Origin: a virus
Length of the DNA: 25,824 nt
Virus record (IMG/VR): IMGVR_UViG_3300047362_000564
Coordinates: 1 to 25,824 of that record
Strand: one strand, 5' to 3'
In this document: one piece after another, positions 7,226-19,941 of the stretch
How the letters are laid out: every line of letters begins with the position of its first letter
How positions within the stretch are numbered: position 1 is the first letter of the stretch
Made by a program: the position numbers and the translations under genes
Notes under the pieces: generated by a model
What the model was told of the DNA's origin: nothing
Seen by the model: only the letters and a program-made list of their open reading frames with translations
The model's database searches: none

Positions 7226-7765
7226 TTATGCGGCTATTTTAAGCAAATCTTCTGGCCATTGTAGGTAATTCTGCCATTCTGCGTCAGGAATTGTTAGCGT
7301 ATATATTTTTGAGTTGTTATGGATTTCAAAATAACGAGGTTTATGGGGAATTCTTATTGGTTTTATTAATTCTTTGCCCTTTGATACATTGCACTTCTTA
7401 CATGCTGTAGTACAGTTTGTCCAAGTTGTCATTCCTCCTAACCAACGAGGCAACACATGGTCAATAGTTAGTTCGCCCGGGTGAAACAATGTATCACAGT
7501 ATTGGCATATATATTTGTCTCTTATGTACATATTCCGCCGAGAAAACTTTGGGCTTTCTGGTATTTTATGAAAGCGTTTTAGCATTACTACACTGGGCAT
7601 AGGCATGTCAAAATTTGCACTATGAATTATTTTATCTTCATAGTTTTTTACAATTTTTACCTTGTCTAGGAAATATGCTTTTATTGCCATTTGCCAACCA
7701 ATCGTACTAAGCGGACTTAAACTTATAGGTGTGGCATTGGCATTTAGTAGGAGTACGCTTTGCAT
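7226..7765 (-). CDS. HNH endonuclease
   Basis: This 179-residue protein has a complete HNH core. It shows C87-x-x-C90, then IDHVLPRWLGG with the DH pair at 102-103, a central Asn at 117, and C122-x-x-C125 followed by NVSKG. The two Cys pairs probably bind zinc beside the ββα-metal active site. The N-terminal 75 residues, beginning MQSVLLLNANATPISL, form an extension also seen in bacterial and phage HNH proteins of this type. It lies between gp25 and the lysozyme-like gene and has its own late promoter candidate. It could be a free-standing homing endonuclease or a late DNA-processing enzyme; the sequence does not decide. Like gp25 it lacks a Shine-Dalgarno sequence. Confidence 0.9.
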   Translation of the reverse strand: MQSVLLLNANATPISLSPLSTIGWQMAIKAYFLDKVKIVKNYEDKIIHSANFDMPMPSVVMLKRFHKIPESPKFSRRNMYIRDKYICQYCDTLFHPGELTIDHVLPRWLGGMTTWTNCTTACKKCNVSKGKELIKPIRIPHKPRYFEIHNNSKIYTLTIPDAEWQNYLQWPEDLLKIAA

Positions 7766-8518: not shown

Positions 8519-9735
8519 TATGTAACATTACCTTTTGATGTATTAAATGATTCTTGTATCTTACTTGCACCTTTCCAAGGATGATGCTCAGGAACACGGC
8601 TTGCCGCACTCTTTAAAATATTTTTATTTTCTACTAATTGATTTTCCAATACACGGGTTGCAGCATCAGCAACTGGTCCATTCATATCAATACGGCCTGC
8701 TGTTTCTTTATAGTTGCCGCCCGCTTTAACATTTCCATTAAGGGCCGCTTCTATTTTAAAGTTTTGACCAGCATATAAGTCTACGTTTGCTGTGGTTGAA
8801 TCTATTTTAATTCCCTCACCACCAGTTGAACGTATGTTTACCCCTTTATCAGATTGCATATTAATGTCTCCTTTACTATGGACATTAAAATTTCCTTCTG
8901 TATGTATACTCATATCTGTCTTACTATAAACATCAATTCGCCCGTCATCTCCTAATTCAACCCAAGCACTACCGGCTTTGTTGTTTACAAATATAAAACC
9001 ATTGGTGTCATCAATTAAAATTTGTGCGCCACCTCTTGACCTGATGCGTATATTATTACTAAGTCCATCTTTATCACCATCATCTAACGATACTACATGG
9101 CCGCTCCTGGTTGTTATACCGAATACATTACTTGGTGATTCTCGTCTAGCACTACTAGCACTGTGTCCTCGGGCATAATCATTTTCAAGTCCTTGATCAA
9201 AAAGTTGTTGAAGTCTAACAGGATCAACCGGTTTGCGATCTGGATCATTTGGGTCATAAGGATTCTTTTCGCCTGTTGGTGCCAGCGTTCCTTCTTGTGC
9301 GTAGTTTTCTGAACTGGCGCGGCCACCCATCATATGATTTCTATCAACAGGAATAACAGTTCCAATTAAAAATCCCTGTTCACTTTTGGTAGTAAAAGCA
9401 ACCAATACTTCTGAGCCAATTGCAGGAGGTTGAGGCCACATACCGTAACTTTTTGGTGTTCCGCCTGATGATTGTCTGTCTAAACCATATGCTGTTTCTT
9501 CAGAACTTGCACTCTTAACTTCTGTTACACCGCCAAAAGGAGTTGTTAGTAGAACAATATAAGTTGCTGTAGGATTTCCTAATTCCGGAATATGTACTTT
9601 AACTCTTCCGGTATAAATGCTATCAGAATTATTTGTTACAATACCAGTATATACGCCATGAAGTAAGTTAATACCGTCACCACCGCCTTGTTTATATTTT
9701 GCTGATATATTTCTACCTGAATTTAAAATTGACAT
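8518..9735 (-). CDS. gp5: gp5/VgrG-like central spike protein (OB fold plus beta-helix)
   Basis: This 405-residue protein is the central spike of the baseplate. Residues ~25-130 form the OB-fold domain: HGVYTGIVTNNSD, GRVKVHIPELG, MWPQPPAIGSEVLVAF and QGFLIGTVIP. A Pro/Asp/Gly-rich linker (~135-195) follows. Residues ~200-335 make a repetitive beta-helix of the gp5C/VgrG kind, with repeats such as SGHVVSLDDG, GGAQILIDD, WVELGDDGRIDVYS and GDINMQSDKGVNIRS. T4 gp5 has about 575 residues and carries a lysozyme domain between the OB fold and the helix. Here only a ~60-residue linker fills that place. Both flanking junctions are TAATG overlaps, linking it to the hub candidate upstream and the lysozyme-like gene downstream. 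Confidence 0.88.
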   Translation of the reverse strand: MSILNSGRNISAKYKQGGGDGINLLHGVYTGIVTNNSDSIYTGRVKVHIPELGNPTATYIVLLTTPFGGVTEVKSASSEETAYGLDRQSSGGTPKSYGMWPQPPAIGSEVLVAFTTKSEQGFLIGTVIPVDRNHMMGGRASSENYAQEGTLAPTGEKNPYDPNDPDRKPVDPVRLQQLFDQGLENDYARGHSASSARRESPSNVFGITTRSGHVVSLDDGDKDGLSNNIRIRSRGGAQILIDDTNGFIFVNNKAGSAWVELGDDGRIDVYSKTDMSIHTEGNFNVHSKGDINMQSDKGVNIRSTGGEGIKIDSTTANVDLYAGQNFKIEAALNGNVKAGGNYKETAGRIDMNGPVADAATRVLENQLVENKNILKSAASRVPEHHPWKGASKIQESFNTSKGNVT

Positions 9736-11645
9736 TATAAGTTCTCTAATTCTTTTCCTATTAATAACGTTACTACGTTTCTGTTTCTCAAACCATGTAA
9801 AGTTTGTGTAAATTCACCACCCATAAATTTACTTTCAACCTTAACAATCTCATAAAGTCCACTGGAAATATAATCCAGTTTTCCTCTATGTTGGCCTTCT
9901 GTATAAGTCACTGCTTCGGTTGGTTTATATGTTAAAAATATTACATACTGACTTGATCCTTTAAAATTTGAACTGCTTAAAGTTGTTCCTGCTGTTTTGT
10001 TTCCAGGGGTACCAATCCAAAAAGGATCTCCTCTTATTTCTGCTGTAAAATTAATAGCGTCAAGTTCTCGACTTGCAAGTTGTTGATATCTTTCTACCTC
10101 TGGATCTTGTTTATTACTTTCAGTAACATGTTGATCTTTTGCACTTTGCGTATCATATGCATATTGTAAGTTTTCTATTACAAAAGGTTCAAAATCATCT
10201 CTTTGACTTATAAAAATTGGTTTGTTAGATACTGTACTAACTTGTTGTGGTTTACTTGGTCTATGTGTTTCAGCAGGGCCTGGATACGCAGATCCCTGTT
10301 GTGGATCTAACGGAACAAAGAATATATTATTAAAGTCAAGTTCAAAGTTTAATACTTCGCTATTTTTTCCACTATAAATCCAATGATATTTCTTTAATAT
10401 GTAATCACTATTTTGCCTAATCCAGTTAACTTGTTTCTTTTTGTTTTCTAACCATGCGTTTTGTTCTGCTGGAGTTGTTGCTGGAACTTGTGTACTATAA
10501 TGTATGCTTAATGTAATTTTTACTTTTATCTCAGGCTGATTAGTTTTGGGGTCTATTTCTGTACCAAAAGAAACTTCCGGACTAGCCACAAGTTTTGGAA
10601 CCTTTTTGTTATTCTTAGAACTTTGAAGTACGAAGTTCCTCCATTCAGGAACCTCTTTTGTAATCTTTGTAACTAACCAGTTTGCAATATTTGAACCTGC
10701 CGTAATAGTTGTAGTACTTGCTAACTTATCGTTATCTGATTGATTCTCTGTGTTTTGTACTCCTTTAATTTGGTCCGGAACATCTACAGCATTTAAATCA
10801 ATGCCCTGCAAACCACCACTACTTCCTGCGCCACTGTGCATTAACTTTTCATTAAGATTAAACCCAGTACTTGCCTTCGTTCCTACATTAGACCTAAACA
10901 TCATTTCGTCTTGTGTTTTATCTCTTGTATATTCTGTGGTTCCGGTTTCGTCAATAATGATTTCCCATTTTTTGTATGACTTAACTGGTGCATCATTACC
11001 TGGTTCTTTTCTTGATTCAACTTCAAAATCATTTAATGCTTTTGCAGTACTGGTTATAAATTCTCCAACTGTTTTATATTTTGTTACTGTTACACTAGAA
11101 TTAATTTTAGATTGTATTAGTGCATAGTTAGAATTATTAAATGCAAGTATACCATATCTTGTTCCATCAACTGTAGTTTTTGCCTGAATCTCTTTTAATA
11201 ATAGACTAAAAAAGAACACACCAGGATATTTTACAGGTTGTTTGGTATCAGGATTTCTACCTTTAAATTCTAGTTTAATAACAAACTTAGCACTAGCAAA
11301 CGTAGAATGATTAAACTCTCTACTGTAACTTAATACTAAATCAAGCAAATCAAAACCTAAGACTTCTTGTATTTCAAACTGGACAACGCTAATTGTTGTG
11401 CTTAGTGTTTGTGTTCCTTGTCTCAAGTAAGAAGTAAACTGTAAATTATCCGTAGCAAATTTAGTTGTAACACCTGATTGTGATATTATTACTGCTTTTC
11501 CAGATTGTAACGTACTCTGTTCTGACTTATCTAAAAATCGTGCAGGATCTCCCCAAACATCTGGATTGCACAAGTACAATGAGATATTATAGGTAGACAG
11601 GTCAATTGTAGATAACCAATTTTCTGTTAGGTTTTGTGCTTTCAT
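9735..11645 (-). CDS. Baseplate hub protein candidate (gp27-like position)
   Basis: This 636-residue protein is encoded immediately before the gp5-like spike, with a TAATG overlap. In T4 the spike sits on a trimer of gp27 (391 residues), and hub proteins commonly neighbour spikes. The C-terminal end (GLYEIVKVESKFMGGEFTQT, then LHGLRN) looks like the last strands of a gp27/gpD-type hub, in which a Y-x-V-x-x-V-x-H pattern precedes a Thr-rich strand. A low-complexity linker is present around residues 270-330, and a Pro-rich stretch with Arg-Pro-Ser-Lys around 470-490. It lacks a signal peptide and membrane segments. I did not recognise the N-terminal half. The structural role is firm by context; the gp27 assignment is an inference. 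Confidence 0.65.
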   Translation of the reverse strand: MKAQNLTENWLSTIDLSTYNISLYLCNPDVWGDPARFLDKSEQSTLQSGKAVIISQSGVTTKFATDNLQFTSYLRQGTQTLSTTISVVQFEIQEVLGFDLLDLVLSYSREFNHSTFASAKFVIKLEFKGRNPDTKQPVKYPGVFFFSLLLKEIQAKTTVDGTRYGILAFNNSNYALIQSKINSSVTVTKYKTVGEFITSTAKALNDFEVESRKEPGNDAPVKSYKKWEIIIDETGTTEYTRDKTQDEMMFRSNVGTKASTGFNLNEKLMHSGAGSSGGLQGIDLNAVDVPDQIKGVQNTENQSDNDKLASTTTITAGSNIANWLVTKITKEVPEWRNFVLQSSKNNKKVPKLVASPEVSFGTEIDPKTNQPEIKVKITLSIHYSTQVPATTPAEQNAWLENKKKQVNWIRQNSDYILKKYHWIYSGKNSEVLNFELDFNNIFFVPLDPQQGSAYPGPAETHRPSKPQQVSTVSNKPIFISQRDDFEPFVIENLQYAYDTQSAKDQHVTESNKQDPEVERYQQLASRELDAINFTAEIRGDPFWIGTPGNKTAGTTLSSSNFKGSSQYVIFLTYKPTEAVTYTEGQHRGKLDYISSGLYEIVKVESKFMGGEFTQTLHGLRNRNVVTLLIGKELENL

Positions 11646-18912: not shown

Positions 18913-19105
18913 CGATACTACTATCTATACTATAGATACTACTGTTGTAGATGACACGTTCCTTACGTCTGCACCTAGTACTATAACGATAACATCACCC
19001 GAAGAAGAAATTTTTGCTAGTTACCCAGATTTTGAAAGCCATAGCGTTAAGAATGCGTTAGGTGCTGATATTATACAGGTATTAAAAGCAAAAATAGATG
19101 AGTGA
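18905..19105 (+). CDS. Small acidic protein of unknown function
   Basis: This 66-residue ORF overlaps the previous gene by 8 nt and the GIY-YIG gene by 8 nt, which supports it as a real gene. The first half is Asp/Thr-rich (DDTTIYTIDTTVVDD), encoded over a 9-base direct repeat. The second half, EEIFASYPDFESHSVKNAL then GADIIQVLKAKIDE, looks like amphipathic helices. It has no Cys or membrane segment. No family was recognised. A small partner or inhibitor of a neighbouring enzyme is possible but unsupported. Confidence 0.65.
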   Translation: MGDDTTIYTIDTTVVDDTFLTSAPSTITITSPEEEIFASYPDFESHSVKNALGADIIQVLKAKIDE

Positions 19106-19511
19106 TTGGGTATTTGAAAACAAAATCGTAGACGAACTTCCGGAAGATTGTGTGGGTTTTGTTTACTTAATCACGAATACAACAAACAATAGAAAATACA
19201 TTGGCAAAAAACTGGCACGATTTAAAAGAAGTAGACCACCACTTAAAGGCAAAACTAGAAAAAGACGTTATACAGTAGAATCAGATTGGCGAGATTATTG
19301 GGGCTCAAACGACGAATTAAAGGCAGACGTAGAAAATTTAGGCACAGAAAAATTCACAAGAGAAATATTATATTATTGTAATTCAAAGGCAGAATGTAGT
19401 TATATTGAAGCACGAGAGCAATTCTCAAGGCAAGTTTTAGAAACCAAAGAATATTATAACGGCATTATTCAAATCAAAGTACACGGCTCACATATACTAA
19501 AAGAAGGCTAA
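19098..19511 (+). CDS. GIY-YIG nuclease-domain protein
   Basis: This 137-residue protein carries a GIY-YIG core. GFVYLIT (20-26) and KYIGKK (33-38) are the two signature strands, followed by a very basic loop (residues ~41-58). An SYIEARE helix around 101-107 could supply the catalytic Glu, and a YYNGII strand (119-124) supplies the conserved Asn. It lacks any additional DNA-binding domain, so it is a minimal nuclease like several phage stand-alone GIY-YIG proteins (homing or Seg-type). It overlaps the preceding gene by 8 nt and is the last ORF before the structured intergenic region, whose first paired bases begin five bases after its stop. Confidence 0.8.
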   Translation: MSDWVFENKIVDELPEDCVGFVYLITNTTNNRKYIGKKLARFKRSRPPLKGKTRKRRYTVESDWRDYWGSNDELKADVENLGTEKFTREILYYCNSKAECSYIEAREQFSRQVLETKEYYNGIIQIKVHGSHILKEG

Positions 19512-19830
19512 TATAGGCTAACATGCTCAGTTTGGTCGAGGTTGCTCGACCCACCTTGAGGTCTGCCAACGAGAGTTGTAGCCGACAGATCTGGTGTGCA
19601 TAAGAATTAAACAATGAGTGAGCTCTGTTGGACCATTACAACTCACAGGTAGCACAAAGTCGTCGTTAGGCAATGTGTGTTCCAGCGTTTATAAGCAGTA
19701 AGTAAAGACGTTTAGCGTAACCGCGTCTCCCTGTAAAAAGGTTTTACTATAACGATGTGTTTGACTTTGACGGGAAAAGTTGAATTTGCACTTGGCCTTA
19801 TTCAGGCTAAGTGTGAATGACAGATTAAGG
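19512..19830 (+). ncRNA. Candidate structured RNA between the GIY-YIG gene and the next ORF
   Basis: No convincing ORF lies here. By hand count GC is 44/80 in 19521-19600, against 18/60 just upstream and 17/80 in 19841-19920. Clear stems follow one another: 19526-19530 with 19556-19560, enclosing a perfect 7-bp stem (19534-19540/19545-19551, loop GTTG); 19561-19565 with 19586-19590, enclosing 19567-19570/19575-19578 with a GAGA (GNRA) loop; 19595-19599 with 19652-19656, enclosing 19618-19622/19642-19646; 19701-19705 with 19744-19748, enclosing 19706-19710/19724-19728; 19764-19768/19776-19780; and a 15-bp hairpin at 19784-19818. GGCTA at 19516-19520 could pair with TAGCC at 19579-19583 as a pseudoknot. 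It is not a tRNA, tmRNA or RNase P RNA by any motif I can see. Strand is assigned from the genes on both sides. Ends are approximate. Confidence 0.6.
19784..19818 (+). other. 15-bp hairpin closing the structured region
   Basis: Positions 19784-19798 pair with 19804-19818 (three G-U pairs) around a TATTC loop; the central ten pairs run CACTTGGCCT with AGGCTAAGTG. There is no T-run after it on either strand, so it is not a standard intrinsic terminator. It could mark or protect the 3' end of the RNA. Confidence 0.6.
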
Positions 19831-19839
19831 AAAAGTACT

Positions 19840-19847
19840 AATAAATA
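19840..19847 (+). promoter_or_regulatory. Late promoter candidate for the gene at 19926
   Basis: AATAAATA matches NATAAATA. With T4 spacing the start would be near 19853, giving a ~73-nt leader ending in AAGG and a hairpin over the ATG. The rest of 19848-19917 is very AT-rich and I see nothing else in it. Confidence 0.5.
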
Positions 19848-19924: not shown

Positions 19925-19941
19925 GATGCTCGTAGAGCATC
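19925..19941 (+). promoter_or_regulatory. Hairpin over the start codon of the 19926 gene
   Basis: GATGCTC (19925-19931) pairs perfectly with GAGCATC (19935-19941) around a GTA loop. The 5' arm contains the ATG at 19926-19928, so this stem could hide the start codon. The AAGG ribosome site (19918-19921) stays outside the stem. Confidence 0.5.

Follow-up and report, generated by a model that had tools for sequence, protein, structure and literature searches.

A predicted pseudoknotted RNA of large T4-like phages with two identical short segments that vary between phages

Background

GOLLD and ROOL are large complex RNAs of phages and prophages; their function is unknown, and they frequently lie near tRNA islands (PMC12286853). 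The manA and wcaG motifs, structured RNAs of marine T4-like cyanophages, are placed in the 5' leaders of metabolic genes (PMC2864571). In RAGATH-18, the TnpB reRNA and other nuclease-linked RNAs, the structured RNA is situated just 3' of a nuclease gene (PMC11061315).

Here we describe a candidate RNA gene from a viral contig of IMG/VR. The whole stretch of DNA analysed, 25,824 nt, is called the window. Like GOLLD and ROOL, the RNA is large, complex and encoded by phages, but it is smaller than these, has no Rfam match and lies beside recombination genes instead of tRNA islands. With manA and wcaG it shares the occurrence as a structured RNA in marine T4-like phages; however, leaders of metabolic genes are the place of those motifs, and the RNA described here matches nothing in Rfam. 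It also resembles RAGATH-18 and the TnpB reRNA in lying directly 3' of a nuclease gene, but this nuclease is of the GIY-YIG or PD-(D/E)XK type and is exchangeable, and no guide extending into flanking DNA has been shown. Finally, the replication primer of ColE1, RNA II, is in work attributed to Masukata and Tomizawa (1990) a structured transcript, one segment of which is complementary to template DNA farther downstream.

Results and discussion

Conservation and coding potential

The first-pass annotation of the window had proposed a new structured RNA of a T4-like phage in a GC-rich region without a usable ORF. This region and its surroundings contain:

19098..19511, + strand: SegE-type GIY-YIG nuclease gene upstream of the RNA (PF19835, E 2e-36)
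19512..19847, + strand: whole RNA element, late-promoter-like 3' edge included (about 98% identity in close relatives against about 80% in the flanks; nhmmer family)
19925..19941, + strand: tail hairpin GATGCTC-GTA-GAGCATC, separate from the RNA and of a type conserved 3' of it

The GC content is indeed elevated, 0.51 at 19500-19599 compared with 0.25-0.38 to the left and right of it. The longest ORFs of the family members have a median length of 40 aa in subtype 1 and 39 aa in subtype 2 (the subtypes are described below), compared with 41 aa and 33 aa, respectively, in shuffled sequence. By this comparison there is no conserved reading frame in the element, in agreement with the claim that it has no usable ORF. 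The tail hairpin is possibly a terminator of this phage group. Most loci have a second hairpin without a U-run 3' of the RNA, often preceded by a word resembling GAGCGATAGCGA.

The folding energy of the element has z -1.9 on the + strand, with 5 of 100 shuffles equally good, and z -0.6 on the - strand. By itself this is marginal and would not have proved a structured RNA. The proof, as inferred from sequences, is comparative, namely near-perfect conservation in relatives together with covariation. Five contigs of close relatives were found by an exact 24-mer and six by the upstream protein, these being the same five and the contig L011. The element is about 98% identical in the close relatives, whereas identity of the coding flanks drops to about 80%. 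In L011 the element diverges in places and carries a compensatory change, TGAG/CTCA to TAGG/CCTA. The comparative data make it nearly certain that 19512-19847 encodes a structured non-coding RNA of a real, previously uncatalogued family, and the initial proposal is backed by conservation, by covariation and by synteny.

Secondary structure and pseudoknots

The predicted structure consists of the following elements:

19523..19601, + strand: domain 1, P1 ATGC/GCAT (19523-19526/19598-19601) around P2, P3 and P4; covariation of P1
19534..19551, + strand: P2 hairpin GGTCGAG/CTCGACC, the sequence signature of the family; covaries
19552..19596, + strand: P3 CACC/GGTG (19552-19555/19593-19596), closing the variable hairpin P4; covariation of P3
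19618..19646, + strand: P6 GTGAG/CTCAC with an inner 2-bp helix and a conserved CTCT...AA internal loop; covariation
19648..19683, + strand: P7 hairpin (19652-19656/19674-19678 and 19659-19661/19669-19671); covariation
19663-19668, + strand: P7 loop TCGTTA, the 5' strand of pseudoknot K1; covariation of K1
19687..19692, + strand: 5' strand of pseudoknot PK-A, GTT-T-AT; four significant pairs
19697..19748, + strand: three-way junction of helix H (19697-19701/19744-19748), P8 and P9; H and P8 covary
19706-19710/19724-19728, + strand: P8 hairpin, whose loop GTAAC (19717-19721) pairs in PK-A; covariation
19730-19732/19739-19741, + strand: P9 hairpin within the three-way junction
19750..19755, + strand: 3' strand of K1, TAACGA; top-scoring helix of the subtype 2 scan
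19784..19818, + strand: P11, the final hairpin, 14-15 bp; fold and helix scan

Covariation was analysed by a test with a tree-based null, by an energy-free helix scan, and by comparing the pairing of a phage's own strands with that of strands swapped between phages. In subtype 1, the first test produced 27 significant column pairs, of which 23 are canonical; four fall in PK-A and two in helix H. The scan recovered the same helices and additionally the kissing pseudoknot K1. Own strands of subtype 1 pair with z 18.4 for K1, 14.4 for P6, 12.3 for P3, 12.0 for PK-A, 8.7 for P1 and 8.4 for H, and none of these scores was reached in 2000 permutations. The values for subtype 2 are 10.9 for P7, 10.7 for K1, 7.7 for P6 and 6.3 for PK-A, with weaker ones for P1 (3.3) and H (2.7). 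Each of the five pairs of P6 has 12-22 double-changed sequences and few broken ones. Covariation in homologues, which had been suggested as a check of the proposal, was thus found by all three approaches; as far as sequence data can tell, it supports P1, P3, P6, P7, P8, the helix of the three-way junction, and both PK-A and K1.

Since G-U greatly outnumbers A-C in the helices (62 against 2 in PK-A, 118 against 0 in P8), the folding strand is the + strand of the window. The excess of G-U does not separate RNA from single-stranded DNA as the folded molecule; RNA is the simpler reading.

Two hairpins singled out earlier are present, one capped by a GNRA loop (CAAC-GAGA-GTTG, 19567-19578, the P4 loop of the window) and the long closing hairpin P11. 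The fold had been described as consecutive nested stems, which is true in part, but the actual fold contains at least two pseudoknots. Many members of subtype 2 have an H-type pseudoknot 5' of P6, seen by eye and absent from the window. P4 (19558-19591) is wholly swapped in L011, the two RNAs being otherwise nearly identical, and resembles an exchanged module.

Members of the family

The family was collected from IMG/VR by profile searches and pattern scans, with the P2 signature as the scan pattern. It has more than 200 member loci, 88 of them non-redundant, and falls into two subtypes; the window belongs to subtype 2. Near-full-length loci number at least 149 in subtype 1 and at least 63 in subtype 2, where some contigs, fetched by different searches, are counted more than once. 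After removal of near-duplicates, at least 64 and 24 loci remain, respectively. Among the later-scan matches listed are 152 new viral loci, and the family profiles recognise 147 of these. The length of the RNA is roughly 330-420 nt.

All members are viral contigs, up to 340 kb long. Pattern matches in contigs of cellular genomes (18) are due to chance, as none of the 18 matched the family profile. Six contigs of 186-340 kb each have a single strong match to the CM of P6-P7 (E 1.7e-14 to 2.7e-6), so the RNA is a single-copy gene, occurring once per contig. The CM match to the window has E 6.5e-11, the window being part of the training set. BLASTN of cultured phages with probes taken from the window and from four other members found no member. 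No description of this RNA was found in open-licence PMC papers; an earlier report elsewhere is not excluded.

Comparison with known RNA classes

The search of Rfam 15 used permissive E-values for the window together with 10 homologue loci, and gathering scores for 9 more loci. This comparison, also suggested by the first-pass annotation, assigned no family to the element, the window or the 19 homologue loci; the window has only two chance matches, outside the element, with E up to 5. The suggested membership in GOLLD, ROOL, HEARO or IMES was therefore not borne out, and for GOLLD, ROOL, HEARO and all other Rfam 15 families no score on the element reaches the gathering cut-off. ARAGORN found no tRNA or tmRNA in the window, and Rfam has no match to either. 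RNase P deserved attention, as subtype 1 contains words similar to CR-IV and CR-V. However, Rfam gives no match, and the order of helices is different: the helices supported by covariation line up as successive domains, and none of them connects the two ends, whereas the ends of RNase P are joined by P1 and it has a long-range P4. The absence of tRNA, tmRNA and RNase P signatures had been annotated correctly. A group I intron, with its P3/P7 core and position interrupting a host gene, does not fit either: there is no Rfam match, the element is intergenic, and its pseudoknots are arranged in another order.

Genomic neighbourhood

The RNA adjoins DNA-recombination genes in many large T4-like phages. 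The usual gene order is late sigma gp55, gp47, gp46, sometimes further genes, the nuclease, the RNA, and, in the opposite orientation, gp26 (T4_baseplate). The nuclease of the window and of most members is of the SegE-type GIY-YIG family (PF19835) and usually ends 0-130 nt upstream of the RNA. Most members without GIY-YIG have PDDEXK_15, a RusA-like Holliday-junction resolvase, in this slot, and cultured jumbo phages have a RusA-like, EndoVII or other resolvase within the same interval. Judging from this exchange, the GIY-YIG protein may stand in for a Holliday-junction resolvase. In a comparison of the slot after gp46 in the window, L107, L103, L113, L138 and L227, it was occupied by GIY-YIG or PDDEXK_15/RusA-like genes. 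Amid the baseplate genes of the window, at 7226-7765 on the - strand, there is a gene for an HNH endonuclease (PF14279, PF01844).

The RNA stays at its site even where the upstream nuclease gene switches family. In L113, L089 and L292 the RNA has other neighbours, the upstream nuclease being moved or missing; because of these loci it is not simply a UTR. It is likely that the RNA is an independent gene and not the leader or tail of one gene.

Diverged homologues in cultured phages

The nearest gp46 proteins of cultured phages belong to jumbo phages (about 48-50% identity). In PA5oct (NC_071039), the P6 motif GTTGCTCTGGTAGAAAAAGATCAAC lies in the syntenic gap together with a P7-like hairpin, and TTCCG comes next. 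In its degenerate form, this motif is found once in the 287 kb of PA5oct; in 11 phage records it occurs at RNA loci only, and the reversed-pattern control gave no occurrences. The CMs have no significant match on PA5oct. The locus was found by synteny, and the link rests on synteny and on the motif being unique in the genome; on these grounds it very likely holds a diverged homologue of the RNA. Eleven nearly identical Pseudomonas phage records carry the PA5oct-type locus, and the Pseudomonas jumbo phages PA5oct, Paride and Callisto probably have a diverged homologue at the same site. PA5oct (L372) also contains a perfect 14-nt complement, 9678-9691 with 10153-10166, linking a P1-like RNA strand to a segment just past a terminator-like hairpin. 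Sinorhizobium phage Phosso has a GC-rich non-coding gap of about 800 nt (L373:9480-10280) at the syntenic place, with a resolvase gene on one side and that of RNase HI on the other; its fold is strong (z -3.7), and homology to the RNA has not been shown.

Direct repeats R1 and R2

The final hairpin is enclosed by two copies of a short word:

19773..19780, + strand: direct repeat R1, GGAAAAGT, just 5' of P11
19829..19836, + strand: direct repeat R2, GGAAAAGT, 3' of P11
19839..19847, + strand: T4 late-promoter-like TAATAAATA, immediately 3' of R2, by sequence

The repeats are 6-10 nt long, the same within one phage and different among phages, and their spacing is fairly fixed, about 51-67 nt. 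Among close relatives they change by single bases. A late-promoter-like element similar to TAATAAATA follows R2 in many loci of subtype 2. The columns of R1 and R2 surfaced independently in the tree-null test as non-canonical pairs.

In subtype 1, the repeats were anchored by a loose pattern that leaves R1 and R2 free to differ, which placed 63 of the 64 members. R1 equals R2 at bases 1-6 in every one of these 63, whereas at the most variable positions repeats swapped between phages agree in only 54-71%. CTC and TCT, the triplets just before the repeats, never agree, so the borders of the repeats are sharp. The repeats of subtype 2 were found by inspection (GGAAAAGT in the window, TGGTAAAG in L093, GGCAAGTT in L023, GGCGAAAAA in L213) and themselves served as anchors, hence only the presence of a repeat counts there. 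The longest words shared within a phage measure 7.3 against 5.9 (sd 0.16) in subtype 1 and 6.9 against 5.4 (sd 0.24) in subtype 2. To our knowledge, concerted direct repeats are not known as a covariation signature from any RNA family.

No complement of R was found inside the RNA above chance, and nothing in the 25.8 kb window is complementary to the exact R. A cis switch, with R1 and R2 competing for one complement, is rejected for lack of such a complement in the RNA. Reading R as a match to tRNA anticodons fails opposite position 37 of the anticodon loop, and one R has TAA. The diverged homologue of PA5oct has no clear R1/R2 pair.

Possible function

A role in infection or packaging, raised in the first-pass annotation, would be conjecture; the genes beside the RNA are recombination genes. 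The reading we favour, though we would stop short of calling it probable, is a stand-alone pseudoknotted RNA gene that works through its two identical short segments, a hybrid of R1 and template DNA affecting replication or recombination; both expression and function are inferred. The RNA would be made during infection. As R1 has the sequence of R2, the R1 segment of the RNA would be the complement of the DNA template strand at R2. When the polymerase passes R2, the folded RNA would offer R1 to the exposed template, and a short RNA-DNA hybrid could form with P11 looped out. Such a hybrid might act as a primer or regulator of phage DNA replication, or feed into the recombination machinery encoded next to it. 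The likeness to ColE1 RNA II is the complementarity of R1 to downstream template DNA (R1=R2 in 63/63 of subtype 1); the differences are the lack of any sequence relation, the spacing of about 55 nt, and the fact that an origin role has not been shown here.

Sites that are required only to equal each other are the expected trace of an RNA pairing with its own template. Nevertheless, the pairing step is a tentative inference by analogy, made without transcript or R-loop data, and use of the RNA as a replication primer is unlikely. The shortness of R, only 6-10 nt, and the PA5oct homologue without a clear repeat pair both count against the pairing. The recombination neighbourhood and the RNase HI gene of Phosso are consistent with a hybrid but prove nothing, and the support from Phosso is weakened further by the unproven homology of its gap. 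Three of four long contigs show GC-skew extrema close to the RNA, but these disappear after gene orientation is regressed out; since orientation explains them, the skew gives no signal for an origin at the RNA.

Equality of R1 and R2 would also be maintained if the RNA acted in trans, with two copies of one seed for a host or phage RNA or DNA. The target would differ between hosts, and R would vary while R1 = R2 stays. The location of R between hairpins, its sharp borders and its single-base changes among close relatives agree with such a role; on the other hand, three sequences would have to change together, and the exact R has no complement in the window (the hosts are unknown). We consider a trans-acting seed rather unlikely. 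A phage protein could also bind at both repeats, candidates including the adjacent nuclease and a dimeric RNA-binding protein; this would account for direct repeats at a fairly fixed distance and for the nuclease gene just upstream in most loci. However, R is highly variable though the flanking triplets are fixed, and the nuclease may be GIY-YIG or PD-(D/E)XK, which leaves this explanation quite unlikely.

The RNA could be purely structural, a cage or scaffold like ROOL and GOLLD, with the repeats as docking sites. It is large, pseudoknotted, phage-encoded and conserved, but it lacks Rfam similarity, and no tRNA lies beside it in the window, unlike the frequent siting of ROOL and GOLLD (PMC12286853); such a role is very unlikely. 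The weakest case is that of a cis element, belonging either to the nuclease gene as its 3' UTR or to the next gene as its leader. It is suggested by the usual distance of 0-130 nt from the nuclease stop codon, and can hardly be reconciled with the persistence of the RNA where the upstream and downstream genes both change.

Implications

With this family, a broad group of large phages gains a class of large pseudoknotted RNA that Rfam 15 lacks, and the probable relative in cultured Pseudomonas jumbo phages makes this class testable. Pairing of R1 with template DNA would go further, defining a new class of phage RNA in which a duplicated, freely evolving segment of 6-10 nt pairs with the template of its own gene and starts or steers replication or recombination; as a whole, this is somewhat unlikely. 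Concerted direct repeats may nevertheless reveal RNA-DNA pairing from sequence analysis alone: if the template pairing is true, co-evolution of RNA and DNA would show as identity, not as complementarity.
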